DNA of 15,671 bases, from the NCBI GenBank assembly GCA_001464165.1, contig LNEX01000582.1, positions 1 to 15,671 of the forward strand. The letters run 5' to 3'. Source of the stretch: a bacterium Ga0077546. Lineage in GTDB: Bacteria; Cyanobacteriota; Vampirovibrionia; Obscuribacterales; Obscuribacteraceae. The translations under genes and the position numbers were made by a program. A model generated the notes under the pieces. The model saw only the letters and a list, made by a program, of their open reading frames with translations, made no database searches and was not told the DNA's origin. Within the stretch, counting starts at the first letter, position 1. Every line of letters begins with the position of its first letter. Of this stretch, positions 1 to 13,078 are shown one piece after another.

Positions 1-81
1 ACTTTCGAGAAGAGGGAGGGTGGCCGCACTGAAGCGCGCCACCTTGGTGTTGGCCGGAAAGAGTTGGAGGAAGCCGCTCAT
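1..81 (-). CDS. Hypothetical protein, N-terminal fragment (runs off window)
   Basis: An open frame begins with ATG at 81 and stays open for 27 codons to the window edge. The peptide starts MSGFLQLFPANTKVARFS. Its start codon overlaps the TGA of the upstream gene in an ATGA arrangement (positions 78-81). This is typical of translational coupling and is the main reason to believe the gene. No family can be recognised from so short a piece. The fragment has no signal peptide or membrane segment. Confidence 0.55.
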   Translation of the reverse strand, partial: MSGFLQLFPANTKVARFSAATLPLLES

Positions 82-296
82 GGCGTCGCCTGCCCGCGAA
101 CCAGACGGAAAAGCAGCCCCACAGCGCGGACGACAGCGAGCACCGTCAGCGCCACCACCAGGAAGAGCGCACACAATGCAGCGACGAACAAGCCCTTAGC
201 AACCGACGGCGCACCCACCACAGTCACCACAGCGAAGACGATGGCCAAGTCGACCAGGGTTATGCCGCCGGTGAAAGATTGAAGACGAATTTTCAT
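78..296 (-). CDS. Small membrane protein, possibly prepilin-like (72 aa)
   Basis: The 72-residue product begins MKIRLQSFTGG and has two hydrophobic stretches (about residues 12-31 and 34-62), ending in a basic tail. A GAAAGG Shine-Dalgarno site lies about 9 bases before the ATG. The short basic leader ending in Gly-Gly, followed by ITLVDLAIVFAVV, resembles a type IV prepilin cleavage site. Here Asp sits at mature position +5, where Glu is usual. The next gene upstream carries a perfect prepilin motif, which makes the resemblance more interesting. The stop overlaps the start of the following gene. The product could instead be an ordinary two-helix membrane protein; function unknown. Confidence 0.6.
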   Translation of the reverse strand: MKIRLQSFTGGITLVDLAIVFAVVTVVGAPSVAKGLFVAALCALFLVVALTVLAVVRAVGLLFRLVRGQATP

Positions 297-309
297 GACA
301 GACCTTTCG

Positions 310-322
310 CAGGCTGTAAGCC
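310..322. other. Small intercistronic hairpin
   Basis: AGGCT-GTA-AGCCT forms a 5-bp stem with a 3-base loop between the two prepilin-like genes, just before the Shine-Dalgarno site of the 72-aa gene. It has no U-tract. It is too short to be sure it matters. Confidence 0.25.
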
Positions 323-336
323 TCAGTTGGAAGCGA

Positions 337-648
337 CTAGGAGAAGCTGATGTGCACCCTGCCGCTGAAGAAGGTGAAATAGATGACGGTGCCGACGATG
401 ATGGCCAGAATGCCCAGAATGGCCATGCAAACCAGCAGCTCGATCAAGGTGAAGCCACCTTGACGACGACAACGACCAGACCCGCCGTAGCAGCCGCGGC
501 GCAGCGGAGGAGCTGCCGCAAAGGCCAGAGCGATGGCACCGCCAGTAGCGGCATCGCGCCGCTTTTGCCAGACAAAAAGCGACAGCGGCAAGATCACGGC
601 CAGCGCAAAAGTCAGCGCAGAAGGGAAGAGCGAGATAAAGTGTTCCAT
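337..648 (-). CDS. Membrane protein with internal type IV prepilin motif (103 aa)
   Basis: The 103-residue product has one hydrophobic segment near residues 8-27, a basic/glycine-rich linker (about 28-63) and then a textbook prepilin signature. This is Gly65 followed by Phe66-Thr-Leu-Ile-Glu70, with a hydrophobic helix to about residue 93. Known prepilins and pseudopilins carry this motif after a short N-terminal leader. Prepilin peptidase cuts after the Gly, methylates Phe +1, and needs Glu +5. Here a transmembrane segment precedes it, and cleavage would leave only about 38 residues with almost no globular domain. No ATG, GTG or TTG lies in frame just before the motif. The start ATG has a GGTGG-type Shine-Dalgarno site. 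Role unknown; a minor pseudopilin or an assembly-competing peptide are inferences. Confidence 0.65.
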   Translation of the reverse strand: MEHFISLFPSALTFALAVILPLSLFVWQKRRDAATGGAIALAFAAAPPLRRGCYGGSGRCRRQGGFTLIELLVCMAILGILAIIVGTVIYFTFFSGRVHISFS

Positions 649-685
649 TTTGCCACCTGTGAATTTGAGTGAGTTGAATCAGTTA

Positions 686-714
686 CGAGAAGCGAGAGAT
701 TTTCTCGCTTCTCG
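686..714. other. Strong intercistronic stem-loop without U-tract
   Basis: CGAGAAGCGAGA (686-697) pairs perfectly with TCTCGCTTCTCG (703-714), a 12-bp stem around a loop of five bases (which may tighten by a G-T pair). It lies 15 bases after the stop of the lipoprotein gene in the direction of transcription. The bases that follow in the minus-strand transcript (UAACUGAUUC) are not a U-tract. It therefore does not look like a classical intrinsic terminator. It may be an RNA-stabilising or processing element, or a Rho-independent terminator of atypical form. Confidence 0.55.
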
Positions 715-729
715 CTGAGCTAAAGACGC

Positions 730-1164
730 TTACTTGCCTTGATGCTTGAAGTGCGGGCGATCGCGCATGTCGATCAGCATCCACGCCTCCATCTGCGGTG
801 CGCCGATGTCGCTAATGATCTGCTCTTCGGTGAGCAGAGGGATGTCCTTGTTGGCGTACCAGACCTTGCCCACGAACACCGTGCGACCGCTGGCATGGTA
901 GACATATTCCAGCCTCTCGCCGCCGTCACAGAGGACTTCGATCAGGGCATACTGACCGGCCACGTGGGTGTTCAGTCGCAGACAATTGACGAGGTTGCCA
1001 CCGGAGGGGATGTTCGCCAGATCTTGGTCGACCAGGCCTTGCAGGTAGACACCGTCGGCAGCAGGCGCAGGAGGAGCGTCCACCGACTCACGATTGCAGG
1101 CACTGAGGCCAGACAGAAGTACGAGGGCGGAGGCGACGACCAGTTTCGAACGCAAGGATTTCAT
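730..1164 (-). CDS. Putative lipoprotein (144 aa)
   Basis: The N-terminus has a basic start (MKSLRSK), a hydrophobic core and a lipobox LSAC with Cys23. This is the standard signal for lipid modification and cleavage by signal peptidase II. A Pro/Ala-rich linker follows the cysteine (PPAPAADG). The rest is a soluble domain of about 100 residues with no family I recognise. Residues after Cys23 are Asn-Arg, so the +2 position gives no clear inner-membrane retention signal. The ATG at 1164 is preceded by a modest GGAA Shine-Dalgarno site. The gene lies in a minus-strand run with membrane and prepilin-like proteins, which suggests a cell-envelope role. Confidence 0.75.
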   Translation of the reverse strand: MKSLRSKLVVASALVLLSGLSACNRESVDAPPAPAADGVYLQGLVDQDLANIPSGGNLVNCLRLNTHVAGQYALIEVLCDGGERLEYVYHASGRTVFVGKVWYANKDIPLLTEEQIISDIGAPQMEAWMLIDMRDRPHFKHQGK

Positions 1165-1223
1165 ATATTTCCAATCAAAAGGTGGGGATGAGGAAGAGAA
1201 CGGGGAAGGGGAGAAGAAAGAAG

Positions 1224-1245
1224 CGACGAGTCATTCAGCTCGTCG
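1224..1245 (-). terminator. Weak terminator-like hairpin after the 192-aa gene
   Basis: CGACGAG (1224-1230) and CTCGTCG (1239-1245) form a 7-bp stem with an 8-base loop that includes the stop codon of the 192-aa gene. The minus-strand transcript continues with a pyrimidine-rich CUUCUUUCUUCUCC. That is suggestive of termination but is not a clean U-tract. Confidence 0.35.
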
Positions 1246-1813
1246 GCAGTACCACCGCAAGCAGTGCAGCACCAGCTCTTGGGCAAGAGGCTGAAGCAGA
1301 GTCGCCGGCAGGAGCAGACAGCGCGACAATCTTGCCTTGCAGTGCCAAAGATTCGGCTTGCTGGCGACCGAGTTTGGCCTTGAGGAAATCACACTCGCCG
1401 ACGGGGCGATCGTGACCTTCACACTCGGCGACATCGGCAAGCAGACCAGAGCAGATCTGCTGCGCTTCGATGGCCTTGATCTCGGCGTCGAGGGCATGCG
1501 ACTGGCGCAGGTAGAAGCTCAAGTCGCTGGGGAAATCGGAGCGCCGGTAGGTCAAGGTTTCACCGACGTTGCCCGCCGTCTTTTCCACCAGTTGAGCCTC
1601 GTACTTTGCGGTGGCAATCTGCTGAACGCGCTGCTTCTGTTCATGCACAGACAGCGTGACACAGGTAACAGCGTCGAGCGACTGCCGGGCCGACAATGCC
1701 TGAGCGGTCACCTTGAGCACGTAGGCCTGATTGAACGCTTCCAAAATCACACGGTAAAGGCTGTGCGTCGGAGTGGTCAACTTGGGCTTGAACTCGAAAA
1801 TTTTGGCTGACAT
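1235..1813 (-). CDS. Hypothetical protein, mostly helical (192 aa)
   Basis: The product starts MSAKIFEFKPKLTTPTHSLY, with an ACAGGAG Shine-Dalgarno site about 6 bases before the ATG. Residues about 20-100 are rich in Ala, Gln, Glu and Lys and look alpha-helical, perhaps coiled coil. The second half contains several cysteines and ends in a hydrophobic Ala/Leu/Val stretch (about 170-190) that could be a weak C-terminal membrane anchor. No conserved motif or family was recognised. The frame choice rests on the strong ribosome-binding site and on its fit within the minus-strand gene run; the opposite frame is a shadow. Confidence 0.6.
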   Translation of the reverse strand: MSAKIFEFKPKLTTPTHSLYRVILEAFNQAYVLKVTAQALSARQSLDAVTCVTLSVHEQKQRVQQIATAKYEAQLVEKTAGNVGETLTYRRSDFPSDLSFYLRQSHALDAEIKAIEAQQICSGLLADVAECEGHDRPVGECDFLKAKLGRQQAESLALQGKIVALSAPAGDSASASCPRAGAALLAVVLPTS

Positions 1814-1871
1814 AAACGGCTCCTGTTGTTAAACGGTCAAACGAAGAACGGCTGGTATGGCGATCTTGCAA

Positions 1872-2663
1872 TCACCAAACGCGGAAAGAAGCCAGCAGAA
1901 AGCTGCGATTGTGAAGGCCCTGGTGCTCGAGTTCGCCGTTGTAGAAATCACCAAGCCCAGAGAGCTTATGGTCGAAGCCCGGCATCGGCTCGTAGCTGAC
2001 ATTGGCGCAACCGGCTTGAGCAGCTGTGGCCTCGGAGAAACAGAAGAGCAGGAACGTCCACCTGGGGTAGAGCTTGTCGAGCTTGGCGAAAAGCGCTGCA
2101 TTGAGCTGAGGACGCTTGGCCTCGGCAACGGCACCGATGGCACTGACGATCTTCTCGGCGCGGTCAGCAATCACCACGTCGTAAATGCCGTTGTCGAAGT
2201 TGGAGATGACTTCGACACCACCAATGGGGTCAACGCGAGGGCTCGGTGACTGAGGCGCAGAGGTATCGCTGTTGGCGCTCATGAAAGATGAGACTTTGCC
2301 CTTGGGGACGAGGCTGTCGCCATCAACAGTGCCAGGCTTGGCGGGGACGGCGATCATCATGGCATTGCCCAGATTGAGGGTGACAGGCTTGCTGGAACTG
2401 ACTGCCTTGGCGCCTTCGCCGGTCAATGGAGCGCTCAAGATACCCTCCGGAGTCTCATCCAAAAGATCGCGACGCGATACCAGAGCACGAGTCGGCACAT
2501 TGCCAGTCGTCGCCCTAGGAGCACCGCTCCTGTGCACTTCGACCGTATTAGAGTAACTGCAGAAATGACGATAGCCGCCATTGACGCGCTCTTCGGAAAC
2601 GACCAGCATGCTGTTGCTGTACGTGAACACGATTTCGGGATGACGATCATTGCTGAGAGACAT
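1872..2663 (-). CDS. Hypothetical protein (263 aa)
   Basis: The product begins MSLSNDRHPEIVFTYSNS, after a TAGGACA Shine-Dalgarno site about 8 bases upstream of the ATG. The first 60 residues look beta-rich. Residues about 125-150 form a Ser/Pro-rich linker, followed by a mixed helical region with one moderately hydrophobic patch (TFLLFCFSEATAAQ). There is no signal peptide or clear transmembrane helix. I recognise no family. It could be a two-domain structural or regulatory protein of the surrounding minus-strand cluster. Confidence 0.6.
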   Translation of the reverse strand: MSLSNDRHPEIVFTYSNSMLVVSEERVNGGYRHFCSYSNTVEVHRSGAPRATTGNVPTRALVSRRDLLDETPEGILSAPLTGEGAKAVSSSKPVTLNLGNAMMIAVPAKPGTVDGDSLVPKGKVSSFMSANSDTSAPQSPSPRVDPIGGVEVISNFDNGIYDVVIADRAEKIVSAIGAVAEAKRPQLNAALFAKLDKLYPRWTFLLFCFSEATAAQAGCANVSYEPMPGFDHKLSGLGDFYNGELEHQGLHNRSFLLASFRVW

Positions 2664-2700
2664 AGTCTATTTGTCCTATAGAATTGTGCAGCGAGTATTG

Positions 2701-2727
2701 CTGGACCAACTAAACTAGTTGGCCCAG
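2701..2727. other. Intercistronic stem-loop without U-tract
   Basis: A 12-position stem with one A-C mismatch (CTGGACCAACTA against TAGTTGGCCCAG) closes a 3-base loop. It lies about 20 bases after the stop of the YvlD-like gene and before the 263-aa gene. The minus-strand tail CAAUACUCGC is not U-rich, so it is not a classical terminator. Confidence 0.5.
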
Positions 2728-2746
2728 ATCCAGTGAGAAGCTGCTG

Positions 2747-3121
2747 TCAGCGGCTGCCGGTGCTGCGGCGGCTCAGAAGACCGAACACGTGGTTGACCAG
2801 CCAGATGCAGAGGCCGGCGACGACTGCAGCTTCCCAACTGGCCACGGTGAGGCGCTCGGGGAACCAAAAGGACGTCAGCTGCAGGGTGACTGCCGGGATG
2901 AACATCTGCAGGACGACGAGCACGATCAAGCCGATGCCGAAAGTGCTGAGGCCGATGACCGCCGCCAAGAGGCCGACAACCACGCTGACGCCGGTGAAGA
3001 GCGCGCCGCAAACGATGCCCTGGGGCCAGAAGCCGCCATGGATGGCAACACCGGGGACGATGGCGGGGAAGGCGTAGGCGAAGAGGAGAGCCATGATGAT
3101 GATGCGAGCGACGAGATTCAT
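2747..3121 (-). CDS. Four-helix membrane protein, YvlD / 'phage holin family 4' type (124 aa)
   Basis: The product MNLVARIIIMALLFAYAF has four hydrophobic helices (about 5-24, 33-55, 57-76 and 96-114). It shows the internal duplication typical of the YvlD/PF04020 family: a P-x-V stretch, then FW and an Ala-rich helix, appearing once at about 23-45 and again at about 86-108. Despite the 'phage holin' label, most members are chromosomal envelope proteins of unknown function, in Bacillus linked to the envelope-stress operon yvlABCD. The frame is open further upstream, but that extension would run over the purine tract and the next gene. The ATG at 3121 begins a standard-length family member. Its Shine-Dalgarno site is weak. 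An adjacent membrane gene upstream suggests a pair. Confidence 0.7.
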   Translation of the reverse strand: MNLVARIIIMALLFAYAFPAIVPGVAIHGGFWPQGIVCGALFTGVSVVVGLLAAVIGLSTFGIGLIVLVVLQMFIPAVTLQLTSFWFPERLTVASWEAAVVAGLCIWLVNHVFGLLSRRSTGSR

Positions 3122-3146
3122 GATTTGCTTTCGAAGTGAAGTGGAA

Positions 3147-3169
3147 GGGAAGGGAAGGGAAGGGAGGGG
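3147..3169 (+). repeat. GGGAA pentanucleotide repeat, potential G-quadruplex
   Basis: Within an intergenic polypurine tract (about 3141-3183) there are five G-runs, GGG at 3147, 3152, 3157 and 3162 and GGGG at 3166, separated by one or two A. This meets the usual G3N1-7 rule for an intramolecular quadruplex. The G-rich strand is the template strand for the flanking minus-strand genes; their RNA would be C-rich. A pure microsatellite is the alternative explanation. Confidence 0.6.
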
Positions 3170-3210
3170 AGAGAAAGAAAGAGGGCAGAGACTTTGCCAC
3201 GCTCGTCGAA

Positions 3211-3651
3211 CTAGTCGACCTTGCGATTGGGGAAGCCGACGATGCCCAGCGGTTGCAGCAAGCCCGCAAGCAGAAGCGGTAGGCCACCGCTGCAAAGCAG
3301 ACCGACCAACAGCGGCCAAGAAGAAAGGACTGACCACTGATGGATGAAGCTGGCCAGCACCGGGCCAAGGCCGTAGCCGATGCCGAAGGCAATGTACCAG
3401 CCGAGCATCTGCTTCAGCGACAAACGTGGAAAGTTGAAGGGCGGGAACGGCAATGTCATGATCACACCGAACAGCAGTTGGGCCCAGACGATGCCGCCAA
3501 TGCCGGTGAAGAGAGCAGCCGTCATCAGCGAATCGGTATACAAATTGGCAGCGGTGAAGAGGCCGAAGCCGACCAAGCCATTGGGAACTGCGATCAGAGA
3601 GCCACCACCGACGATGACGATGGAATTCACGATGAACTCATACAGTCTCAT
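3211..3651 (-). CDS. Polytopic membrane protein (146 aa)
   Basis: The product begins MRLYEFIVNSIVIVGGG and has four hydrophobic segments at roughly residues 8-28, 42-68, 83-104 and 110-138. Pro/Phe/Arg and His/Gln/Trp-containing loops separate them. A TTAGGAA Shine-Dalgarno site lies close before the ATG. I do not recognise the family. It sits directly upstream of the YvlD-like four-helix gene and has a similar size and layout, so the two may act as a pair in the membrane. The strong terminator only about 50 bases upstream leaves little room for a normal promoter. Expression may therefore depend on read-through or an internal start. Confidence 0.65.
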   Translation of the reverse strand: MRLYEFIVNSIVIVGGGSLIAVPNGLVGFGLFTAANLYTDSLMTAALFTGIGGIVWAQLLFGVIMTLPFPPFNFPRLSLKQMLGWYIAFGIGYGLGPVLASFIHQWSVLSSWPLLVGLLCSGGLPLLLAGLLQPLGIVGFPNRKVD

Positions 3652-3703
3652 TTTGTTTCCTAACTACGGTTAGAGAGAAAGGAGAGAAGTCGACAAAGAA
3701 AAC

Positions 3704-3739
3704 TCGAGATAGAGCCAGGCAAGCCGGGCTCTATCTCGA
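3704..3739 (-). terminator. Intrinsic terminator after the 66-aa gene
   Basis: TCGAGATAGAGCC (3704-3716) and GGCTCTATCTCGA (3727-3739) form a perfect 13-bp stem with a 10-base loop, beginning one base after the TAG of the 66-aa gene. The minus-strand transcript continues with GUUUUCUUUG, a good U-rich tail. It is the only convincing intrinsic terminator inside the long minus-strand gene run, and it divides that run into two parts. Confidence 0.8.
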
Positions 3740-3740
3740 T

Positions 3741-3941
3741 CTAGTGGACGTCACCGACGTTCACGTAAATCAAGAAAACACCTTTCTTCCATTCAGCAGA
3801 ATCCGTTGGGTTGCCACCGGCCAGCCACGCTTTGTAGGCAGCAGGCCACTGTGCGTCCGTCGGCTTGATGCTGAGCGAGGGGAGGCCAGCAGAAGGAGCA
3901 TTCTGCAAACCCACCAACTCAAAACACGATTTCGTTTCCAT
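3741..3941 (-). CDS. Small hypothetical protein (66 aa)
   Basis: METKSCFELVGLQNAPSAGL is preceded by a very strong GGGAGG Shine-Dalgarno site (about 3948-3953) seven bases before the ATG. The start lies 23 bases inside the 3' end of the upstream TPR-like gene, in another frame. The ribosome-binding site and the terminator immediately after the stop make this a real gene despite its size. The sequence has a Trp-containing middle (QWPAAYKAWLAG) and a hydrophobic C-terminus (GVFLIYVNVGDVH). No family was recognised. Confidence 0.65.
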   Translation of the reverse strand: METKSCFELVGLQNAPSAGLPSLSIKPTDAQWPAAYKAWLAGGNPTDSAEWKKGVFLIYVNVGDVH

Positions 3942-4530
3942 CAGACACCTCCCTCAGTAAAAGACTGGCAGTGCCACCATTGAGCACATCGGGATTGGCA
4001 ACAAGGTAAGCACCCATGTTGCTGGCAGCAGCAGCAGCAGCTTCCTGATTTCCCAGTAACATCTCGCTGCGGTAGAGCCAGTAGTAAGCGTAAGCAGCCG
4101 ACGGACTGCAATAGCCTGGCACTTGTTTCAGCACCGCTGTTGCTACCTTGGCCGCAGCCTGCCCGGCTACAGCGCGGCCACCACGAACGCAGGCTTCAGC
4201 AAGCAGCACCGTCACCTCGAAGGAGCGACGGTTGCCGCTGCCGAAGAGACGGTCATAGCCGACCACCGCAGCCTCGAGGTGGGGAGCAGCCTTGGTGCAG
4301 TCAAGGCCGACAAGATAGATACGGCCCAGTCGGTCATGCACGTGCGCCATCAGCTGTTGCAAGCGATGCTTCTCGTTGGTGCCGGCTGCCAGCACTTCGA
4401 GAATGGCCAAAGCGACGTTGTAGTGCAGCAGAGCTTCCTCTGTCGTGCGGGCCGATTCGAACTGATGGCCTGCGGTGATTGCCTCTTCTACTCGGACGAA
4501 GTAGCCTTGGAGGGAAGTTTGGTTGTTCAT
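3919..4530 (-). CDS. Helical TPR-like protein (203 aa)
   Basis: The protein is almost wholly alpha-helical and Ala-rich. Paired helices such as ARTTEEALLHYNVALAILEV and RLGRIYLVGLDCTKAAPHLE have the spacing and small-residue pattern of tetratricopeptide repeats. About three to four degenerate units are visible between residues 20 and 185. Such folds mediate protein-protein contact. No signal peptide or membrane helix is seen, so it is probably cytoplasmic. A CGAGGAA Shine-Dalgarno site lies about 9 bases before the ATG. The 3' end overlaps the 66-aa gene, which suggests coupled translation of the two. Confidence 0.65.
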   Translation of the reverse strand: MNNQTSLQGYFVRVEEAITAGHQFESARTTEEALLHYNVALAILEVLAAGTNEKHRLQQLMAHVHDRLGRIYLVGLDCTKAAPHLEAAVVGYDRLFGSGNRRSFEVTVLLAEACVRGGRAVAGQAAAKVATAVLKQVPGYCSPSAAYAYYWLYRSEMLLGNQEAAAAAASNMGAYLVANPDVLNGGTASLLLREVSDGNEIVF

Positions 4531-4587
4531 GTGGAAGTTCCTCGTTTTCGTGTTTTAACTTGCGCGAAGCAACGGCAAGCCCAAGCT

Positions 4588-4658
4588 TGACGCTGCCTCT
4601 TCTTCTTTCTTTTCTTTGAAGTCGCTTGAACTTCTACGCCGCTCTCAAAGCAGCGTCA
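4588..4658. other. Long-range inverted repeat around the stop of the 106-aa gene
   Basis: TGACGCTGC (4588-4596) and GCAGCGTCA (4650-4658) are perfect 9-base reverse complements about 53 bases apart. The right arm contains the stop codon of the 106-aa gene. The loop holds a polypyrimidine run (about 4596-4617). It might fold into an extended 3' structure in RNA, but chance cannot be excluded. Confidence 0.3.
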
Positions 4659-4976
4659 GCGGATTGCCGGACCTTCGCAGATGACGCCCTCGGGGAAAAT
4701 CAGGCAGTCGCGCAGTGACTCCGGGCCCACGGGAGGCTGGGCCTCGCCGGCAGAAGGCAGAGCCGGGGCGCGGAAGTTCAGGGTCTGTGTCTCCGGGTCC
4801 CACCATGCCGGGGCCGTGGCCTTGTCGACAGTGAAGTCGATCTTGGGCAGGTCCATGGCGTTCAGCAAGCTGCGCACGGCTGCGCCAGGGTCGAATGTCG
4901 CTTCCACAGACTCTTGCTCGCTTTCCGGCGGCGGGGTGAAGAACGGGTAGTGACTATAGAAACTGTCGTTGCTCAT
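4656..4976 (-). CDS. Small acidic hypothetical protein (106 aa)
   Basis: The product starts MSNDSFYSHYPFFTPPPESE. It is acidic and Pro-rich, with no membrane segment and no motif I recognise. I chose the ATG at 4976 because the longer frame (from 5090) would overlap the end of the dikinase-like gene and adds a low-complexity Thr/Lys stretch. The Shine-Dalgarno site for the chosen start is weak (GAAAG). It lies 46 bases after the dikinase-like gene, so it is probably co-transcribed with it and might be a partner. Confidence 0.55.
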   Translation of the reverse strand: MSNDSFYSHYPFFTPPPESEQESVEATFDPGAAVRSLLNAMDLPKIDFTVDKATAPAWWDPETQTLNFRAPALPSAGEAQPPVGPESLRDCLIFPEGVICEGPAIR

Positions 4977-5022
4977 GATTTTCTTTCGTTTGGTTTGGTT
5001 TGTAGTCGATTTCAGTCGACCG

Positions 5023-7821
5023 TTAGACGCAGTGGTCAGGGGGTGCCATGTGGCCAGGGCCGTGATAGTAGTCAGCTGGCATGTGGTCAATCAACAGGAG
5101 GTTCGACGGCTTCTTGCTCCACGCTTCGAGCTGCTCGATGGTGGAGTGCGCCAACTCATGGGACACCACCGGTTGCTCCGTCCCAAAATTCAATTTCTCC
5201 CCGTCCCAGAACGAATTCCAGGGAACATCACCAGAGGACTTCTTGAAGTACTCAGGGGCAGACATCGAACCGCTCTCATCGATACTCTTCGGATCGAAAC
5301 CTATGCCCTTGTACTTCTCCAGCAATGCCTTCAGTTCACTGATGCCTTCGTCATAAAGCGATGTGCCATGGCTGAAATCACTGGGGGTGGCGAAGAAGTC
5401 TTTCGGTGTGACATAATCCTTTCCATTTTCCATGCACGATACGTAGAAAGCATTTTCCTCGGCCTGCTGCTGCTCGACATCAGCTTCACTCCAGAGCGCC
5501 AGCCTGAGGCCCTCCTGATACAGCGAATTCAGGTTCGGCCGGGCAAATTTCTCGCCGCCGAGCAGCCGGGCAAAGCGAGCACGCAGCGAAGCCACAGAGC
5601 GAGCCTTCTTCTTCGCTTGCAGCAATGAATGCACTGTCGAGCTGTTGGCTGCGATCATCGGATTTTTGCCAAAGACACGACCACTGTTGTGGTGCAAGTC
5701 GAAGGCGTGATCGACAAACAAGCTATGACTGAGCGAGCCATTCATGAACTTGTAAGCAGCCTCGGCAATCTTAGCCCAGCGCCCTCCACCGTAGCCACCC
5801 TGCCAATTCCCCATGCGAAAAACATCAGTACAGAGCTTGAGAAAGCGCACCTGCTGTGCCACTTCCATCTCCCGTAACACCACATTGGTGCTCGCTTGTG
5901 CCACGCTGCGGAACGCTTTGGAGTGATCGCGAGTCACCTTGTAGGTGCCAAGCAGCTCCTCCACAGCGTCAGGGCAGAATCTGTTGGACAGCGACACATG
6001 GCGCATCTCTCCGCCAATCGCCAGCACCAGGTAGACGACGATGCGCTCCGCCACTTCCATGTGCACTTCTCGCCGCAGGTCGTTAGCCTGCTCTTCCAGG
6101 GCTGTTCCTTGAGCGGCCGTAGCCATGGCATCGCTGAGGTAGAAGTCGGCGATCATTACCTCGACGTTCTTTTGCTCAGCAACATGCTCGAACACCAGAC
6201 GCGGTGCCCGCCATTTGTCTGCTTCGGCCGAGGCGCGCCAGCGGCAGATCACTTCTACCTCCTTGGTCAGCCTGGCTGCTGCCTGTTGAATCTCGCCACT
6301 GAGCACGGCCCCATAAGCGCCGTCAACAGAAACGATATCTCCTTCTTTCAAAGCAACGAGACTGGCACCACAACCGACCACTGCCGGCTTGCCCAGCTCA
6401 CGTGCCACCACCGCAGCATGACAGGTAGCGCCACCGGTCATGGTGACGATAGCCTTAGCTGCGATCATACCGGGCAGGTCATCGGGTGAAGTGTCCCGCC
6501 GCACCAGCACCACTGACTGCCCCGATGCCGCGGCCTGAACGGCCCTGGTCGAATCGAACACCACCGTGCCAGTGACGGCACCAGGCGCCGCCGGAACGCC
6601 CAAGTACAAGAGACGGCTGGCCATGGCCAATTCCAGCTCAACGGCGTCGAAGCCTTTTCGCCGCACTGCAGCAAACTCTTGCGGGGTCACCCGGGCGAGA
6701 ACTTCCGCCCTGGTCAAACGGCCTTCCTCGTAGAAATTTGCGGCGATTTGGACAGCGGCCAACGGCGTCAGAACAGCCTTGCGCACCTGCAAGATGTAGA
6801 GCACACCTGACTCAACAGTGAACTCCACCTCTACAGGATAGTTACGCTTGGTCTCCAAGCGTTCAACCCGTGAGCACAGCTCCTTGTAGAGCGCCGCGTT
6901 CCATTCTTCCATGTCAGGCAACCAGCCGGGCGTCACCTTGCCAGCCACCTGGTCTTCACCCTGAGCGCCCACCGTGTACTCACCCCAGATGCCGCGATGG
7001 CCGCGCACAACATCGCGGCTGAAAGCCACGCCGCTGCAAGAGAGCTGATCGCGGTTGCCGAACACCATGGTTTGCACCGTCACCGCCGTGCCCAGGTCGT
7101 CGGCAATCTGCTTGCTGCGGCGGTACTCCGAAGCCCGCGGATTGTTCCACGAGCGCAGCACAGCTTCCACCGCCATGGTCAACTGCACCCAGGGTGCGTC
7201 AGGGAAGGCTGCGCCACTGTGCTCTTGGCAAATCTGGCGGAAGCGATGGCAGCTAGCTTTCAGCTGGTCAGCCGAAAGAGTGCTGCTATCACCACAGTCA
7301 GATTCACTCGATTGCGCTTCGAATTGCTCTTTGGCGACGCCGAGCACCACTTCACCGAACATGCGGATGAAGCGCAAGTAGCTGGAGTAGGCGAAGACGG
7401 CGTCGTCGTTGCCATCGCCATCCGCGGCAAGGGCCTCGACAATCTCCCAGTTCATGCCAACATTGAGCACAGTGTCCAACATGCCCGGCATTGAAACTTC
7501 GGCAGTGGAGCGCACCGAGACGAACAGAGAATCGGCACCACCTTGAGCGGCAACGCCGAAGCGTTTGCCTGAAGCGGCCTCGAGCGCTGCAATCTTGCGA
7601 CGCAGATGCCAGGCCAGCCCCTTGGGCACGCTGCCGGTTTGCGCGAACGAGCGCGCCACCGCGGTGCCGATGGTGAAGCCGCAGGGCACGCGCATGCCCA
7701 GTGAAACCAACTCGACCAGACCGGCCCCCTTGTTACCGAGAACTGCAGCGCTGCTTTCAGTCTCGTCGAAAAGAAAAGCCACGGGCTGAGCCTGAGTTGG
7801 CCTTTTGCGATTTGTTTGCAT
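5023..7821 (-). CDS. PPDK-like dikinase with novel C-terminal region (932 aa)
   Basis: Residues 1-510 match the layout of pyruvate phosphate dikinase: an ATP-grasp nucleotide-binding half (GNKGAG with Lys31, VSVRS with Arg104, SMPGMLDTVLNVG, GEDQVAG, and VEVEF/LQVR with Glu331, Glu333, Arg347) and a swivelling phosphohistidine domain (GGATCHAAVVAR, His468). These correspond to the ATP-site residues and catalytic histidine known in PPDK (Lys22, Arg92, Asp321, Glu323, Arg337 and His455 in Clostridium symbiosum). Autophosphorylation of His468 from ATP is therefore likely. The PEP/pyruvate TIM barrel is missing. Residues about 515-932 are unfamiliar, with a W-x-GGYGGGRW segment (673-682), VDHAFDLHHNSG (703-714) and HELAH (888-892). 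The acceptor is unknown. Rifampin phosphotransferase is a known precedent for a PPDK-like enzyme with another acceptor. I placed the start at 7821; the longer frame (from 7941) overlaps the upstream gene. Confidence 0.85.
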   Translation of the reverse strand: MQTNRKRPTQAQPVAFLFDETESSAAVLGNKGAGLVELVSLGMRVPCGFTIGTAVARSFAQTGSVPKGLAWHLRRKIAALEAASGKRFGVAAQGGADSLFVSVRSTAEVSMPGMLDTVLNVGMNWEIVEALAADGDGNDDAVFAYSSYLRFIRMFGEVVLGVAKEQFEAQSSESDCGDSSTLSADQLKASCHRFRQICQEHSGAAFPDAPWVQLTMAVEAVLRSWNNPRASEYRRSKQIADDLGTAVTVQTMVFGNRDQLSCSGVAFSRDVVRGHRGIWGEYTVGAQGEDQVAGKVTPGWLPDMEEWNAALYKELCSRVERLETKRNYPVEVEFTVESGVLYILQVRKAVLTPLAAVQIAANFYEEGRLTRAEVLARVTPQEFAAVRRKGFDAVELELAMASRLLYLGVPAAPGAVTGTVVFDSTRAVQAAASGQSVVLVRRDTSPDDLPGMIAAKAIVTMTGGATCHAAVVARELGKPAVVGCGASLVALKEGDIVSVDGAYGAVLSGEIQQAAARLTKEVEVICRWRASAEADKWRAPRLVFEHVAEQKNVEVMIADFYLSDAMATAAQGTALEEQANDLRREVHMEVAERIVVYLVLAIGGEMRHVSLSNRFCPDAVEELLGTYKVTRDHSKAFRSVAQASTNVVLREMEVAQQVRFLKLCTDVFRMGNWQGGYGGGRWAKIAEAAYKFMNGSLSHSLFVDHAFDLHHNSGRVFGKNPMIAANSSTVHSLLQAKKKARSVASLRARFARLLGGEKFARPNLNSLYQEGLRLALWSEADVEQQQAEENAFYVSCMENGKDYVTPKDFFATPSDFSHGTSLYDEGISELKALLEKYKGIGFDPKSIDESGSMSAPEYFKKSSGDVPWNSFWDGEKLNFGTEQPVVSHELAHSTIEQLEAWSKKPSNLLLIDHMPADYYHGPGHMAPPDHCV

Positions 7822-7840
7822 CTTTTCGCTTTCGTAAAAG

Positions 7841-8491
7841 TTATCGCTCGATACGCAACATCTGCTGTCGCTGAGCTTCAAACCGCGCCTGTTCAGCGTC
7901 GACCCGCTCCAACCCTTCAGCCACCCACGCCAGCTCGGCATCGACCAGACCCGGAGCCATCTTCAGCAGCTGTATGCTGTGCTCGAGCCAGTCCTTGGCA
8001 GCTCCAGCCACAGCTCGATCTTGGCTAATCAATGCACTGAAACCAGCCAATCTGAGTTCGTCAAGACAGCGCTTCAGCTCGTCATGCAGAGCCCGAAGGT
8101 TTGAAGCCGTGGCCAGTCGCAGTTTGGCCAAAGCACGTATTGCCTCCCAAGTGAATCCAAAGAAGCAATGCAGCTCATCGTCCAGACGTTGCAACAGCTC
8201 TTGGTTGCGGCGCGTAGACGCCAGCTGCGCTTCAAGCACTTGCTTGAGAGTCTCGCCGCGAGTGGTTGCATTTGCCAGAGCTGACTGCGCGTACGACCAG
8301 GCCTCCATCACCGCAGGCTGCCGCTGGCCGACGAACTGATGCAAGACCTGGCAGTAAGCGCTTTCGTAGCGCTCCAGCTCGCGAGTGGTATCTTGCGACC
8401 GCCTCTCAGCTCGCCGCAAGGCGTACTCTGCCACACCCGCGTCCTCTCGGGCTCGCTCCAGAAGAAGACGAAGACTTGAAATATTTTCCAC
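7841..8491 (-). CDS. Helical coiled-coil protein (216 aa), GTG start
   Basis: The protein is nearly all alpha-helix, rich in Leu, Ala, Glu, Arg and Gln. Heptad-like stretches lie at about residues 5-45 (SSLRLLLERAREDAG onward), 70-150 and 180-216. No enzyme motif, signal peptide or membrane helix is seen. The start is GTG, supported by a GAAAGGA Shine-Dalgarno site seven to ten bases upstream. It ends only 19 bases before the dikinase-like gene, so the two are almost certainly one transcript and may form a complex. Family unknown. Confidence 0.65.
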   Translation of the reverse strand: MENISSLRLLLERAREDAGVAEYALRRAERRSQDTTRELERYESAYCQVLHQFVGQRQPAVMEAWSYAQSALANATTRGETLKQVLEAQLASTRRNQELLQRLDDELHCFFGFTWEAIRALAKLRLATASNLRALHDELKRCLDELRLAGFSALISQDRAVAGAAKDWLEHSIQLLKMAPGLVDAELAWVAEGLERVDAEQARFEAQRQQMLRIER

Positions 8492-8513
8492 GTGAATTCC
8501 TTTCAGGTACTGA

Positions 8514-8529
8514 CACCGGGTGACCGGTG
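8514..8529 (-). promoter_or_regulatory. Hairpin just upstream of a ribosome-binding site
   Basis: CACCGG (8514-8519) and CCGGTG (8524-8529) form a GC-rich 6-bp stem with a 4-base loop. In the minus-strand RNA it lies about ten bases before the Shine-Dalgarno site of the coiled-coil gene and could modulate its translation. There is no direct evidence of regulation. Confidence 0.3.
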
Positions 8530-8591
8530 CACTGTAGGCGAGATGCCGGGGTCAATGACCTCCAGCTCGATATAGAACGACTGACGGCAAA

Positions 8592-8882
8592 TCAGCGGCG
8601 ACCACCCCGGCCCGAGCGCATCTTGGGCACCAGCCAGAGAGCGGCAAGGCCAGAGCCAACCAACGAGCCGATGGCAGCCGAGCCACCGAGCCAGTAGCCG
8701 ACGCAGCCGGTGACAACGGCAGTGACAGCCGCGAGGATGAACAGGTCACGGACGCGGGTGTCCTGACCGCCGCCACCGCCGGCAACACCGCCGATCAGCA
8801 GGATGGCGAAGCGCACCACCGCGAAAATCGCGAAACCAGCCAGGGCGAAGAGAATGAAGAAGACAGAGTCGAATGAGTTCAT
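8592..8882 (-). CDS. Small membrane protein with glycine linker (96 aa)
   Basis: The product begins MNSFDSVFFILFALAGFAIF and has hydrophobic segments at about residues 6-32, 46-66 and 69-86. A Gly-rich loop (GGVAGGGGGQD, about 31-41) separates the first from the rest. The end is strongly basic (MRSGRGGRR), so the C-terminus is probably cytoplasmic by the positive-inside rule. An AAGGAATC Shine-Dalgarno site lies close before the ATG. No family was recognised. Confidence 0.65.
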   Translation of the reverse strand: MNSFDSVFFILFALAGFAIFAVVRFAILLIGGVAGGGGGQDTRVRDLFILAAVTAVVTGCVGYWLGGSAAIGSLVGSGLAALWLVPKMRSGRGGRR

Positions 8883-8914
8883 GTTGATTCCTTGAAGTTG
8901 CGAGATGAAAGTTC

Positions 8915-9409
8915 TCAGCCTTGCGGCTCGAAAATCGGATTGAGCACCGGCACCGCGTTCTTGGCCAAAAGGCCTTCGGGCTTGAGCACGATGACGCCAG
9001 CCGCAACGAGCACGCAGGCTTCTTGAAGCGTGAGCTGGTCGATGGGACGGGTGAGGTCGAAGGCCATGCCGAGCTCGTTGCGGTGGTGACGCAGAGCATC
9101 CTTGACCGTGGCAGCCCCGATCACCACAGCATGATCATCCGCTGCCAGAGCTGAGTAGGCGATCACCTTCCAGAACCAGTGCAGGTTAGGCATGGTGAAG
9201 AGGATGGCGACGGCCTCGGCACTGAAGAACGTCGGCAGCACCTGGTCGTCATTGACCGATTCGACGCCACGAACACGCATCGCCAGCCGGTAGATGTTCA
9301 GACCGAGCATCTGCGGGGTGAGCGGCTGGCTCCAGTTGCGGCTCAAGGCGTGTTCTTGCTGAGCGATGGAAGCGATCTGGTAGAGCTGAACGGAGAAGGA
9401 AGTGGTCAT
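8915..9409 (-). CDS. Hypothetical protein, paralogue 1 of tandem pair (164 aa)
   Basis: This soluble protein shares its whole length with the next gene upstream. Common blocks are VLPTFF (57-62), PNLHWFW (74-80), RPIDQL (121-126) and NPIF (157-160), with conserved helical spacing between them. The shared pattern defines a small family I do not recognise by name. Trp/Phe-rich blocks suggest a compact hydrophobic core or a protein-binding surface. There is no signal peptide. An AAGGAGC Shine-Dalgarno site precedes the ATG. The two copies have diverged strongly, so the duplication is old and both copies seem to be kept. Confidence 0.7.
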   Translation of the reverse strand: MTTSFSVQLYQIASIAQQEHALSRNWSQPLTPQMLGLNIYRLAMRVRGVESVNDDQVLPTFFSAEAVAILFTMPNLHWFWKVIAYSALAADDHAVVIGAATVKDALRHHRNELGMAFDLTRPIDQLTLQEACVLVAAGVIVLKPEGLLAKNAVPVLNPIFEPQG

Positions 9410-9477
9410 TTGAGCTCCTTGCGCATGGGTGAAGTTAGTACAGACAGATTGAGCAGCAGCTTCTGCCGAACGGCATT

Positions 9478-9984
9478 TCAGCCTTGCGATTGCTGCTGAA
9501 AAATCGGGTTAAAAACCAGCTCGGCACCGTTGAGGTGCTGCCATTCTGTGCTCTTGAACAAGATCACGCCTTCGGCAACCAGCATCGCCATCTCCGAGGC
9601 AGAGAGTTGGTCAATGGGCTTTTTCAGGTCGTAGAAAGCGGCACAGCGATCACGGAAGCGGTCGATCACGCGACGAACAGTGTTGTCATCGATCAGCTTG
9701 CTGCCTCTCGAATCACCGACGGCGTAGTAGACCACGTTCCAAAACCAGAACATGTTCGGCGAGCTCATGAGCAGCTCCACGGCGCCGGGGGTGAAGAAAG
9801 TGGGGAGCACAAGGGCGTGGTCGAGCGCAGCCACGCCAAGCACACGGCGGGCCAATTCGTTGATGTCGTAGCCCTGGCTCACGAAAGAGACGTCTTGCAC
9901 GACGTGACGGTGTTCGGAGAAGATGGAACGGCCACGAATGGCGACGTCACGGAGGCTGGCCGGGAAGTGTTGAGTTTGATTCAC
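9478..9984 (-). CDS. Hypothetical protein, paralogue 2 of tandem pair (168 aa), GTG start
   Basis: It is paralogous to the following gene: VLPTFF (59-64), PNMFWFW (76-82), KPIDQL (122-127) and NPIF (159-162) fall at almost the same positions. The start is GTG, sharing a GTGA overlap with the stop of the 33-aa gene upstream. An AAGGAAAA Shine-Dalgarno site inside that small gene supports this start. Translation is probably coupled. There is no signal peptide and no known motif. The N-terminal 40 residues differ most between the two copies and may carry their separate roles. Confidence 0.7.
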   Translation of the reverse strand: MNQTQHFPASLRDVAIRGRSIFSEHRHVVQDVSFVSQGYDINELARRVLGVAALDHALVLPTFFTPGAVELLMSSPNMFWFWNVVYYAVGDSRGSKLIDDNTVRRVIDRFRDRCAAFYDLKKPIDQLSASEMAMLVAEGVILFKSTEWQHLNGAELVFNPIFQQQSQG

Positions 9985-10082
9985 AGTTTTTCCTTTTTAC
10001 ACATGTAGATGATGATGCCCATAGGCGAGAAAGCGAGCAACGCCACCATCGGAACGGTGAACAGCGCAATGAAGAAATCCAT
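9981..10082 (-). CDS. 33-aa single-helix membrane peptide
   Basis: An ATG at 10082 opens a 33-codon frame, MDFFIALFTVPMVALLAFSP onward, ending in a basic KKEKL tail. Most of it is one hydrophobic helix (about 3-27). A strong TAAGGAG Shine-Dalgarno site lies seven to eight bases before the ATG. Its TGA overlaps the GTG of the next gene in a GTGA arrangement. The strong site, charge layout and coupling make it a likely real small protein. It may be a regulator of a membrane complex; family unknown. Confidence 0.65.
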   Translation of the reverse strand: MDFFIALFTVPMVALLAFSPMGIIIYMCKKEKL

Positions 10083-10109
10083 GACTATTCTCCTTAGCCT
10101 GCTGAATCA

Positions 10110-10131
10110 GCGCTGGCGGTGCCCGCAGCGC
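10110..10131. other. Intercistronic GC-rich hairpin
   Basis: GCGCTG (10110-10115) pairs with CAGCGC (10126-10131) around a 10-base loop, between the 184-aa gene and the 33-aa gene. It has no U-tract on the minus strand (UGAUUCAGC follows). It could set the relative output of the two genes. Confidence 0.35.
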
Positions 10132-10136
10132 AAGCT

Positions 10137-10691
10137 TCAGTCGATGAAAGCCAACCCGGGGCACCAATCGGTTCCAGCTGCAGCGAGGAAAGTGCGAACA
10201 CCACGCTTGCGAACAGCTGCGCGCTCAGCCGCAATGGCAGCTAGGCGTTCGGCCGATTCGGGCAAGAGTTCCGCGGCGACGGCGAGGTTCTTCTCGATTA
10301 CCTCCTGATGCATGAAGATCTGGCGCGAGAACAGCATTTCAGCCCGCAGGTCGCCGTCGGCGAAGGCCGTGCCGGGAAAGCAAGTGTGCCAGTTCCAGCG
10401 CAACGACACAGGCAGAGCCGGTTTGCTGTGCAAGAGAAAGTTCTGGGCGTAGGCAGCCGGGAAAGCACGGTCTTTCACTCCATGCAGAAATTCTTCCACC
10501 TCGGGGCCGAAGTGAGCGAACAGCTGCACCAGAGAATTCTCTGCACAACCAAGCTCAGCCGCAGCGAGAGCTACAGACTCTGCGTCGATCGGCGTTTGGC
10601 GATTGTCGTTCAGTCTTTGCAGAAGCAGCTTGTAGCGTTTGTGCAGCGAAACAAATTCAGCGAGATGGAACGCCACTTGTTCAATAATCAT
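10137..10691 (-). CDS. Hypothetical protein, first gene of the left cluster (184 aa)
   Basis: MIIEQVAFHLAEFVSLHKRY begins a mainly helical soluble protein. The middle has aromatic residues (SLRWNWHTCFPG), and a long Ala/Glu/Arg helix lies near residues 130-165. A GAAAGG Shine-Dalgarno site lies 6-8 bases before the ATG. It is the first gene of the minus-strand run and follows a 660-bp gap, so its upstream region should hold the promoter. I could not find a convincing -35/-10 pair there. No family was recognised. Confidence 0.65.
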   Translation of the reverse strand: MIIEQVAFHLAEFVSLHKRYKLLLQRLNDNRQTPIDAESVALAAAELGCAENSLVQLFAHFGPEVEEFLHGVKDRAFPAAYAQNFLLHSKPALPVSLRWNWHTCFPGTAFADGDLRAEMLFSRQIFMHQEVIEKNLAVAAELLPESAERLAAIAAERAAVRKRGVRTFLAAAGTDWCPGLAFID

Positions 10692-10894
10692 GGAGAACCT
10701 TTCGGAATTGATGGTTTGAAAATTAACGCAATGCAGAATCTGAGAAACTGCAACGGCTAACTACACGACAGCAAACTGTCGAGAAGAAAGAGTTCGGTGG
10801 GGAATGTATTAGTGTTTTAAAGGAGTTATTGGGTTTTTCAGGTTTGTTGAAGAGATATCGAATTCACTCTAAATAAAGCCCTTATAACTAATCA

Positions 10895-11353: not shown

Positions 11354-13078
11354 CTAGTCAGGTTCGCGTACATAGCCCTTACTATTGAGATGATTTGCTC
11401 CAAATCGCTTCTCCATTGGCTTTATTGTCTGAGCATTCCAAAACGAACTCGGCATATCAATTGTCATCGGCGTCTTTAGCTTCAGCATTACGGCCAAAGC
11501 TGATTGATCAATGGGATTGGCAATGAGACTCAACTCTTGCAAATTTACTAATTTGAGTAACTCTGGCAAACACTTAGCAGTGATCGAATTATCTTCAATA
11601 TTCAACTTCAACAACATTGTCATGCCACCAATGGCCTGCATATCATCATCTCTAAGCCGGCAGCCCTGGGCCGTGAAGTGAAGCAGACTGTTATGCTGAG
11701 CCAGACTGGTAATTAACGGAGAAGCATTCTTCGTTCCGCTAACAACAAAACTTTGAAGCTTCGGCAAGCAATTCAACTTGAGCAAATCTTCTCCTGTCAA
11801 TGTTGAATCAGATAGGTCAAGATCGATCAACCCAGGTAACTTATTGAGGCTATTTATGGCTGCCAGACTAAACTTGCCACGACTAACAATCACTTTCCGG
11901 AGCGACGTAATATGCTCTATAGAAACGAGTGACTTATCACCCCAGTCACCAGAAACACCGTCATCAAAGCGCACAGCGAACAAATCATTAGCGCCAAAAC
12001 CCCGCAAAAGCTCAGGCTGATCACATATTGCTTGACCAGCCCGAAATACTACAGCTGGGCCATCTTCAATCTCGACAACACCACAAGCAGGACGACAGTT
12101 TTTTTCGTCACCCTGACCAATCCTACCGATTTCTCTATCAGGAAATTGAAAGCAGATAAAACCAGATCTCTTTGGCCGTAAGCGATAAGTACCTAACGCC
12201 GGCACTGGAACTTCGCCTGGCTGCACCGACATTGAAGAATCGGGCCTTGGAGAACTAGCCTGCTGCAAAGCTAAGAACACTCCAAGTGCAAACAAAGGCA
12301 AGACCAATATCAACAAATACACTTTAAATCGTCCATCAATCGCCCCTTTAGACTGGCTGGCAGCAGTAGAGAGCAGCTCAGGCGAAGGCAAGTGAGAATT
12401 AAGTTGCTTAGTATGCTCGCCCATCACCTCTAATACTTCCGAAAACGACTGGGGACGCTCAGCTGGATCTTTGGCTAGTAGCTCGGCCACCAGCTCCTCA
12501 AGCCAATCTGGGTAAGCTTGCACTTGCTCCAAGCCGCACGCCTCTACCAAAGTCGGAGCCGGAACTTCCTGATGACAGAGCATAGTGGCAAAGGCCGTTG
12601 CCGCGCGAAAGGGCGGCTTACCTGTGAGCATTTCAAAAAGAGCACAGCCACTAGAATAAATGTCTGAACGGGCGTCTACTTTGTCACCCACTGATTGCTC
12701 AGGGCTCATATACAGCGGGCTACCAAATACTGTTCCGGCCACGGTCAGCTGCTGGCCAACAGATGCCGTAGCTGACAAAGCAGCGATGCCAAAGTCAACG
12801 AGCTTAACAGCGACGATGGCATCACTAGTGCTACTGCGCAACTCTAGGAAAATATTGGCCGGCTTAATATCGCGGTGGACAACACCATTTTCATGACAAA
12901 CAAGAAGGCCCTGACAAAGCCCAGAAAAGACATACAGTGCCTCTGCCACGTCCAACATGCCCTTGCGAGCAATGCGTTCAGCCAGTGACTCGCCATCGAG
13001 ATGCTCCATGGTGTAATAAGGCAAGCCACCTTCGGCAATACCAAAATCGAAGACTTGCACAATATTCTTGTGCTTCAA
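11354..13078 (-). CDS. 5'-truncated membrane Ser/Thr protein kinase with LRR outer domain
   Basis: The frame opens after a TAG and enters a Hanks-type kinase at the alpha-C/beta-4 boundary (KHKNIVQVFDFG). The C-lobe is intact: HRDIKPAN with Asp70, DFG at 95-97, SPE at 125-127 and SDIYSSGCALFEMLTGKPPF. A transmembrane helix lies at about 252-271. The outer part (about 370-550) shows leucine-rich repeats such as LPGLIDLDLSDSTL and LVNLQELSLIANPI. The glycine-rich loop, ATP-anchoring lysine and alpha-C glutamate (normally about 60-90 residues earlier) are absent, and no frame just upstream encodes them. The only start is a TTG without a Shine-Dalgarno site. It is probably a decapitated, inactive kinase or pseudogene, though its long open frame suggests recent loss or a kept function. 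Confidence 0.75.
   Translation of the reverse strand: MKHKNIVQVFDFGIAEGGLPYYTMEHLDGESLAERIARKGMLDVAEALYVFSGLCQGLLVCHENGVVHRDIKPANIFLELRSSTSDAIVAVKLVDFGIAALSATASVGQQLTVAGTVFGSPLYMSPEQSVGDKVDARSDIYSSGCALFEMLTGKPPFRAATAFATMLCHQEVPAPTLVEACGLEQVQAYPDWLEELVAELLAKDPAERPQSFSEVLEVMGEHTKQLNSHLPSPELLSTAASQSKGAIDGRFKVYLLILVLPLFALGVFLALQQASSPRPDSSMSVQPGEVPVPALGTYRLRPKRSGFICFQFPDREIGRIGQGDEKNCRPACGVVEIEDGPAVVFRAGQAICDQPELLRGFGANDLFAVRFDDGVSGDWGDKSLVSIEHITSLRKVIVSRGKFSLAAINSLNKLPGLIDLDLSDSTLTGEDLLKLNCLPKLQSFVVSGTKNASPLITSLAQHNSLLHFTAQGCRLRDDDMQAIGGMTMLLKLNIEDNSITAKCLPELLKLVNLQELSLIANPIDQSALAVMLKLKTPMTIDMPSSFWNAQTIKPMEKRFGANHLNSKGYVREPD

Follow-up and report, generated by a model that had tools for sequence, protein, structure and literature searches.

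What does a protein do with a phosphorylated histidine when it carries the first two domains of pyruvate phosphate dikinase (PPDK) and none of the barrel that binds phosphoenolpyruvate (PEP) and pyruvate? The question is raised by a gene in the window analysed here, a stretch of 15,671 nucleotides from contig LNEX01000582.1. The gene sits in a GC-rich island of an Obscuribacter-class bacterium. Its product, referred to below as the window protein, is probably a PPDK-type dikinase without the barrel, joined in one chain to its acceptor module, a helical domain named DOM. At a broader level, the data may well describe a phosphotransfer system that works through phosphohistidine and has a new acceptor fold, composed of a PPDK-type kinase, DOM presenting an acceptor other than pyruvate, DSP-type phosphatases and SM, the name given here to a small domain encoded at the cassette loci. 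The system looks like a core function in a large group of siphophages, with fused forms in bacterial islands (up to three copies per Obscuribacter genome), rarely fused also to an AAA ATPase, and it may phosphorylate a nucleic acid, a nucleotide or a protein.

The kinase half and the absent barrel

A Pfam scan of the window protein returned PPDK_N and PEP-utilizers only, with nothing past residue 504. Residues 16-530 were aligned with PPDK of Clostridium symbiosum (1dik) at E 1.1e-101, and residues 22-515 were matched by phrog_18609, a phage family labelled kinase. The ATP-site residues and the phosphohistidine motif listed in an earlier note on this DNA were found to be kept. K31, R104, E333, R347 and H468 correspond to K22, R92, E323, R337 and H455 of 1dik, Q345 corresponds to Q335, and E331 stands opposite Asp321, a change from Asp to Glu. 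Gaps aside, K31, R104, E333, R347 and H468 were unvaried in a 27-row alignment and in 73 fused rows, some of which are one protein taken from two sources. The earlier note had named no strand; the plus strand of 5023-7821 is interrupted by stops.

PF02896, the family of the PEP/pyruvate barrel, was matched by 0 of 27 barrel-less kinases and fused proteins versus 4 of 4 control PPDKs. Neither the window protein nor the fused proteins tested matched a barrel profile derived from those controls, and profile searches on residues 515-932 gave no match to a PEP-utilising barrel. The enzyme had been described as a PPDK that lost its barrel; the absence stands, and the direction of the change is left unsettled by the kinase tree. 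The window protein scored 488 bits against TIGR01828, the PPDK equivalog model, below the cut-off of 843 bits. A role in resistance or as a conflict effector, also suggested beforehand, is unsupported so far. The rifamycin phosphotransferase model NF041857 scored 47 bits versus a cut-off of 999 and matched the His domain alone (model positions 764-860 of 864 with residues 407-505), and none of the PADLOC anti-phage defence models matched the window protein at E up to 0.1.

The gene could in principle be an assembly or frameshift artefact of an ordinary PPDK. This can practically be dismissed: G122, a genome of the class of Candidatus Obscuribacter, holds a copy of 90% identity with the surrounding genes ordered as in the window, the fused proteins form a 20-member group, and both halves of the gene are under constraint; nothing was found in favour of an artefact. 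In one pairwise comparison of window and G122, dN/dS was 0.22 and 0.21 for the two halves, which therefore look equally constrained, and 0.56 for the tail. Across residues 515-932, P0002 and P0003 are 86% and 67% identical to the window protein. The fused frame is real and no product of chance or artefact.

The helical domain DOM and the C-terminal tail

No Pfam family was found in residues 515-932 (418 aa) of the window protein. The earlier note had counted about 420 unfamiliar residues in this region; that description is accurate with respect to Pfam, but about 275 of them belong to a known phage family, phrog_20946, and about 137 form a low-confidence tail. The phrog_20946 profile, whose function is unknown, matched residues 588-736 (E 3.2e-18) and all 36 members of DOM set A3. 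With a profile of 36 members, a DOM search recovered 610 of the 7999 candidates scored at E up to 0.001; the 120 matches listed have lengths of 329-386 aa. Five fused DOMs were aligned with 23 stand-alone DOMs by hhalign over 177 columns, with a probability of 99.5% and an E of 2.6e-23.

The motifs E-x-R-H, GG-x-x-W, D, L-x-H-N and F-x-K were kept in both fused and stand-alone DOM. Among the 73 fused rows, E605, W682 and D704 were present in 73, H711, N712 and K719 in 72, and R607 and H608 in 66. The structure of the whole window protein was predicted to contain an almost entirely helical DOM at about residues 520-795, followed by a tail of low confidence (pLDDT below 50 at residues 796-893 and 904-932). 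Stand-alone DOM was predicted with confidence, also as a mostly helical structure. Searches of the PDB with a DOM model gave no significant match.

The form of the tail seen in residues 796-932 was found only in P0002, P0003 and the G122 copy; P0004 stops before it, and blastp with the tail gave nothing significant. The tail contains DxSGSM and HExxH motifs, which are taken here to be MIDAS-like and metallopeptidase-like, respectively. Matches of Peptidase_M4 to the tail were weak (E 0.083 in the window protein, 0.0032 in the G122 copy), and in P0002 the glutamate of HExxH is gone. Both motifs are visible by eye in the longer fused homologues P0174, P0177 and P0178, the first two of which also have an AAA domain (PF00004).

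The phage cassette

In siphophages of ∼80-105 kb, DOM is usually encoded by its own gene, adjoining a barrel-less PPDK-like kinase, DSP-type phosphatases and SM. Kinase, phosphatase and DOM were found together in 8 of the 9 DOM-bearing phage loci opened from the annotated collection (L001, L002, L004-L008 and L227), with one or two DSP-type phosphatases and with terminase, DNA polymerase or portal genes close by. The ninth record, L003, is a 595 kb uncultured phage with tandem DOM proteins of 949 and 694 aa at 11557-16502. A query with the DOM of phage DLP3 returned 40 phage records (Vibrio 33, Stenotrophomonas 4, Rhizobium 2, Rhodobacter 1).

A kinase search of IMG/VR confirmed 126 places, from which 80 loci were kept. 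The kinase frame was shorter than 840 aa in 66 of these, and 53 of the 66, including the fused L009 and L016, had at least 3 kb of downstream sequence. DOM was present in 51 of the 53 short-kinase loci, at least one phosphatase in 51, at least two phosphatases in 47 and SM in 47. The two loci without DOM were L025, which carries part of a barrel, and L045. The other 14 loci had a long kinase frame, and only one of them, L013, had DOM. At L013 a divergent barrel-bearing PPDK, a phosphatase frame of 483 aa and DOM lie side by side at 4753-10610; the barrel scored 82 bits versus 255-279 for the controls, and the arrangement is possibly an intermediate.

The phosphatases resemble DSP-PTPases, with CX5R(T/S) kept in 122 of 123 matches. 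The SM domain comprises ∼90-100 residues and lies near the end of frames that are mostly 250-340 aa in phages; at fused loci the SM frames are 138-332 aa. Two genes annotated as thymidylate synthase (L001 14461-14937 and L002 12623-13399) match DSP-type phosphatases. In Vibrio phage J26, the cassette genes after the kinase gene ORF98 are annotated as protein-tyrosine phosphatase, membrane protein and pyruvate decarboxylase, and correspond to phosphatase, DOM and SM.

ORF98 is the published case for reading the phage kinases and the fused proteins as ordinary PPDKs with a diverged PEP-binding part, that is, as auxiliary metabolic genes: in the available text of PMC12038007 it is supported by an AlphaFold model and PEP docking, and the barrel-bearing PPDK next to DOM at L013 points the same way. 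This reading is nevertheless very unlikely. PF02896 had no match in ORF98 at E up to 0.1, and the PEP domain proposed for residues 524-691 in that text, with 168 residues and four strands, is about half as long as the 351-357 residues of PF02896 in the four controls. The window protein stays far under the TIGR01828 cut-off, DOM in its model is almost all helical, and both G122 and G001, an Obscuribacter metagenome-assembled genome (MAG), already own a barrel-bearing PPDK.

A phage system for DNA or nucleotide modification was also considered, in which the kinase would phosphorylate a modified base or nucleotide on DOM and the phosphatases would finish the reaction. This is a narrower form of the preferred reading, with which its probability overlaps, and taken by itself it is doubtful. 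It fits the position of the cassette next to DNA polymerase, portal and terminase genes, the gene for a dCTP deaminase or dUTPase that precedes the kinase in two phages, and the ThyX and dCTP deaminase-dUTPase elsewhere in the genome of a third cassette phage. DLP3 DNA resisted 15 of 15 restriction enzymes tried, and a glycosyltransferase is considered there as a possible DNA modifier, according to the available text of PMC7326821. That resistance could, however, be accounted for by the deacetylase-to-glycosyltransferase cluster of DLP3 and Rhodobacter phage RcZahn, and the bacterial and viral fused loci have little in common beyond SM and phosphatase. The cluster common to DLP3 and RcZahn (L226 34671-40096; L224 30784-35575) comprises deacetylase, epimerase, aminotransferase, methyltransferase and glycosyltransferase genes; this sugar-transfer cluster could decorate DNA or the cell surface.

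Fused forms and the kinase tree

Besides the two viral contigs, fused proteins were found in 3 of the 80 genome loci kept, all MAG contigs: L089 (Candidatus Obscuribacter), L090 (Moraniibacteriota) and L091 (an Alphaproteobacteria bin). The neighbours of the fused gene in L090 are, judged from their sequence, presumably RuvB-, pilus-ATPase- and TsaE-like. When the DOM part of the L090 protein was used as a protein query, 53 hits were obtained, and every one of them matched both kinase and DOM; some are proteins of loci already counted, and at least P0159 and P0160 begin inside the kinase.

Of 289 genomes drawn from the Obscuribacter class, 12 contained DOM, in 15 copies. Each of these frames also matched the kinase, and two are truncated by the start of a contig. 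Adjoining these 15 fused copies were 6 phosphatases and 10 SM genes. The phosphatase family was found in 5 of the 289 genomes (E up to 1e-10), each of which also has DOM (Fisher p 4.9e-8), and SM in 10 (E up to 1e-5), seven of them among the 12 with DOM (p 2.9e-9); both p values are too small because the genomes are related. G001 has three fused copies, each with SM adjoining; its match on C290 was flagged, with two TAA codons inside. The barrel-bearing PPDKs of G001 and G122 have 944 and 962 codons and match the control-built barrel profile.

In a kinase tree calculated with FastTree, the fused (20), split (58) and long (26) proteins were each set apart by a branch, with local support of 100, 100 and 96, respectively. 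Frames of at least 840 aa were classed as long; 26 of 101 such rows and none of the 20 unclassified rows were used, and L090, a duplicate of L181, was excluded. Because the tree is unrooted, it does not settle in which order fusion, splitting and barrel loss took place.

The association with SM and phosphatase also bears on an alternative in which DOM serves for docking or regulation and the charged His passes its phosphate in trans to a protein, such as SM, which a DSP-type phosphatase then dephosphorylates, giving a reversible switch. Such a switch is unlikely. It would suit the presence of SM in 47 of the 53 viral loci and, at most 0.9 kb downstream of DOM, in 10 of the 15 class copies, the GTxGxxxY-like motif of SM, whose T is invariant in 11 fused-type rows, and the near-universal CX5R(T/S) of the DSP-PTPase-like phosphatases. 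But many polar residues of DOM are kept in fused and stand-alone forms alike, a pattern more in keeping with a reaction or binding site than with a scaffold. Neither the T nor the Y of SM is strictly kept across the full set of 66 rows, and no SM adjoins the fused gene in the window or in 5 of the 15 class copies.

Proposed mechanism

If the window protein is a dikinase with its own acceptor module, ATP would charge His468, and the swivel domain would then bring the phosphate to an acceptor held by DOM, with AMP plus phosphate or pyrophosphate set free. Conservation suggests that E605, W682, D704, H711, N712 and K719, and mostly R607 and H608, form the DOM site. A DSP-type phosphatase and SM may act on, or regulate, the same phosphorylated product and so reverse or complete the step. 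As judged from sequence, the steps as far as the charged His have a good basis, and those after it are inferred. Charging of His468 and transfer to a C-terminal acceptor had been proposed in the earlier note. The intact sites are in line with the first step, and binding of the acceptor by the C-terminal domain is plausible; in phages the same pair is encoded by two genes. The fusion of kinase and DOM in one gene argues that DOM is the acceptor module, and the acceptor bound by DOM would be other than pyruvate. Because the cassette lies near terminase, DNA polymerase and portal genes, a nucleotide, a nucleic acid or a small protein seems a likelier acceptor than a glycolytic intermediate.

Several observations weigh against this interpretation. 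Two DOM frames occur in L003, where the 24 kb read contain no kinase, and L045 has a short barrel-less kinase with no DOM within 7.9 kb downstream. At L013 a PPDK with a divergent barrel adjoins DOM and a phosphatase, so DOM need not replace the barrel. Three SM-bearing genomes of the class are without DOM, and 5 of the 15 fused class copies, including the closest relative of the window, have no adjoining SM and 9 no adjoining phosphatase. R607 and H608 each vary in 7 of the 73 fused rows. The DOM fold has no solved match in the searches made, and its substrate site is therefore deduced from conserved residues alone.

Genomic setting in the window

The coordinates of the fused gene and its parts are given in Table 1. 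Along its whole length the window has stretches that match contig C10 of G122 in the same order, at 73-91% DNA identity. G+C is 55-61% across the first 10 kb of the window and 45-53% thereafter, and a similar step borders an island of ∼15 kb in G122. Between window and G122, dS was 0.17 for the fused gene, 0.18 for the gene before it and 0.76 in two genes outside the island on one side. Inside the island dS ranged from 0.09 to more than 0.9, and part of the island may therefore have been exchanged later. The four cassette parts are not adjacent in the window or in G122, where phosphatase and SM were not detected.

Table 1. Positions in the window of the fused gene and of the parts of its product
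Feature	Position	Strand	Basis
Fused kinase-DOM gene, P0001, 932 aa	5023..7821	minus	ATG start at 7821, stop 5025-5023; open frame
ATP-grasp (PPDK_N), residues 16-400, with K31, R104, E333, R347	6622..7776	minus	PF01326 E 1.5e-33; 1dik alignment
Phosphohistidine swivel domain, residues 406-514	6280..6606	minus	PF00391 E 9.9e-26
His468 codon (= PPDK His455)	6418..6420	minus	1dik alignment; His in 73/73 fused rows
Helical domain DOM (phrog_20946 family), residues 520-795	5437..6264	minus	phrog_20946 match; hhalign; conserved columns
DOM conserved residues E605, R607, H608, G678, G679, W682, D704, H711, N712, K719	5437..6264	minus	
C-terminal tail, residues 796-932, low model confidence	5026..5436	minus	pLDDT; comparison with P0002, P0003, P0004 and the G122 copy

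The GC-rich island occupies 1-10700 of the window, and a Pfam search of nine neighbouring proteins gave no family above the cut-off. A small protein encoded on the minus strand at 337-648 has an internal prokaryotic N-terminal methylation (type IV pilin-like) motif (PF07963, E 9.2e-11). The lower-GC part of the window encodes a Ser/Thr kinase-like protein at 11354-13078 and a protein judged TPR-like by eye at 13108-14451.

Implications and comparison with known systems

If the proposed reading is correct, phage genes named PPDK are part of a dedicated phosphate-transfer cassette and not auxiliary genes of carbon metabolism, as at least one of them has been published in the available text of PMC12038007. 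Their cassette neighbours, named pyruvate decarboxylase, thymidylate synthase or membrane protein, would be misnamed too. The fused bacterial gene is a natural pointer to a joint function of kinase and DOM, and offers a single polypeptide for an acceptor search. The fusion points to a phosphate-transfer system common to phages and bacteria and so far undescribed; no description of the kinase-DOM pairing was found in the literature.

The window protein resembles PPDK (TIGR01828) in its ATP-grasp and phosphohistidine domains, residues 16-530, with the catalytic residues kept. It differs in being without the PEP/pyruvate barrel and below the model cut-off, and fused, split and PPDK-length kinases occupy separate branches of the tree. 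The published reading of J26 ORF98, a kinase of the same barrel-less family with phosphatase, DOM and SM downstream, is that of a genuine PPDK that uses PEP and has its TIM barrel at residues 524-691 (PMC12038007, available text); this metabolic interpretation is contradicted by the sequence comparisons made here.

The two halves of the window protein are matched by phrog_18609 and phrog_20946, which are separate genes in the opened phage loci and in most viral contigs with both, whereas they form one gene in the window, L009 and L016. Among small-molecule dikinases, rifampin phosphotransferase (RPH), HpeHI, CreHI and PpsAB combine ATP-grasp and swivel His with a second-substrate domain unlike the PEP barrel, RPH as one protein and the other three as two proteins, as set out in the available text of PMC12167813. 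The window protein, with ATP-grasp and swivel His and no PEP barrel, is similar to these enzymes as they are described there. It differs from RPH in its order of ATP-grasp, His and other domain, whereas in the rifamycin phosphotransferase model the His domain comes last, and a relation of DOM to the rifampin-binding domain was not detected in the searches made. The kinase-DOM pairing is real and represents a variant of the swivel-type dikinases, in which a widespread phage family is the likely acceptor module.

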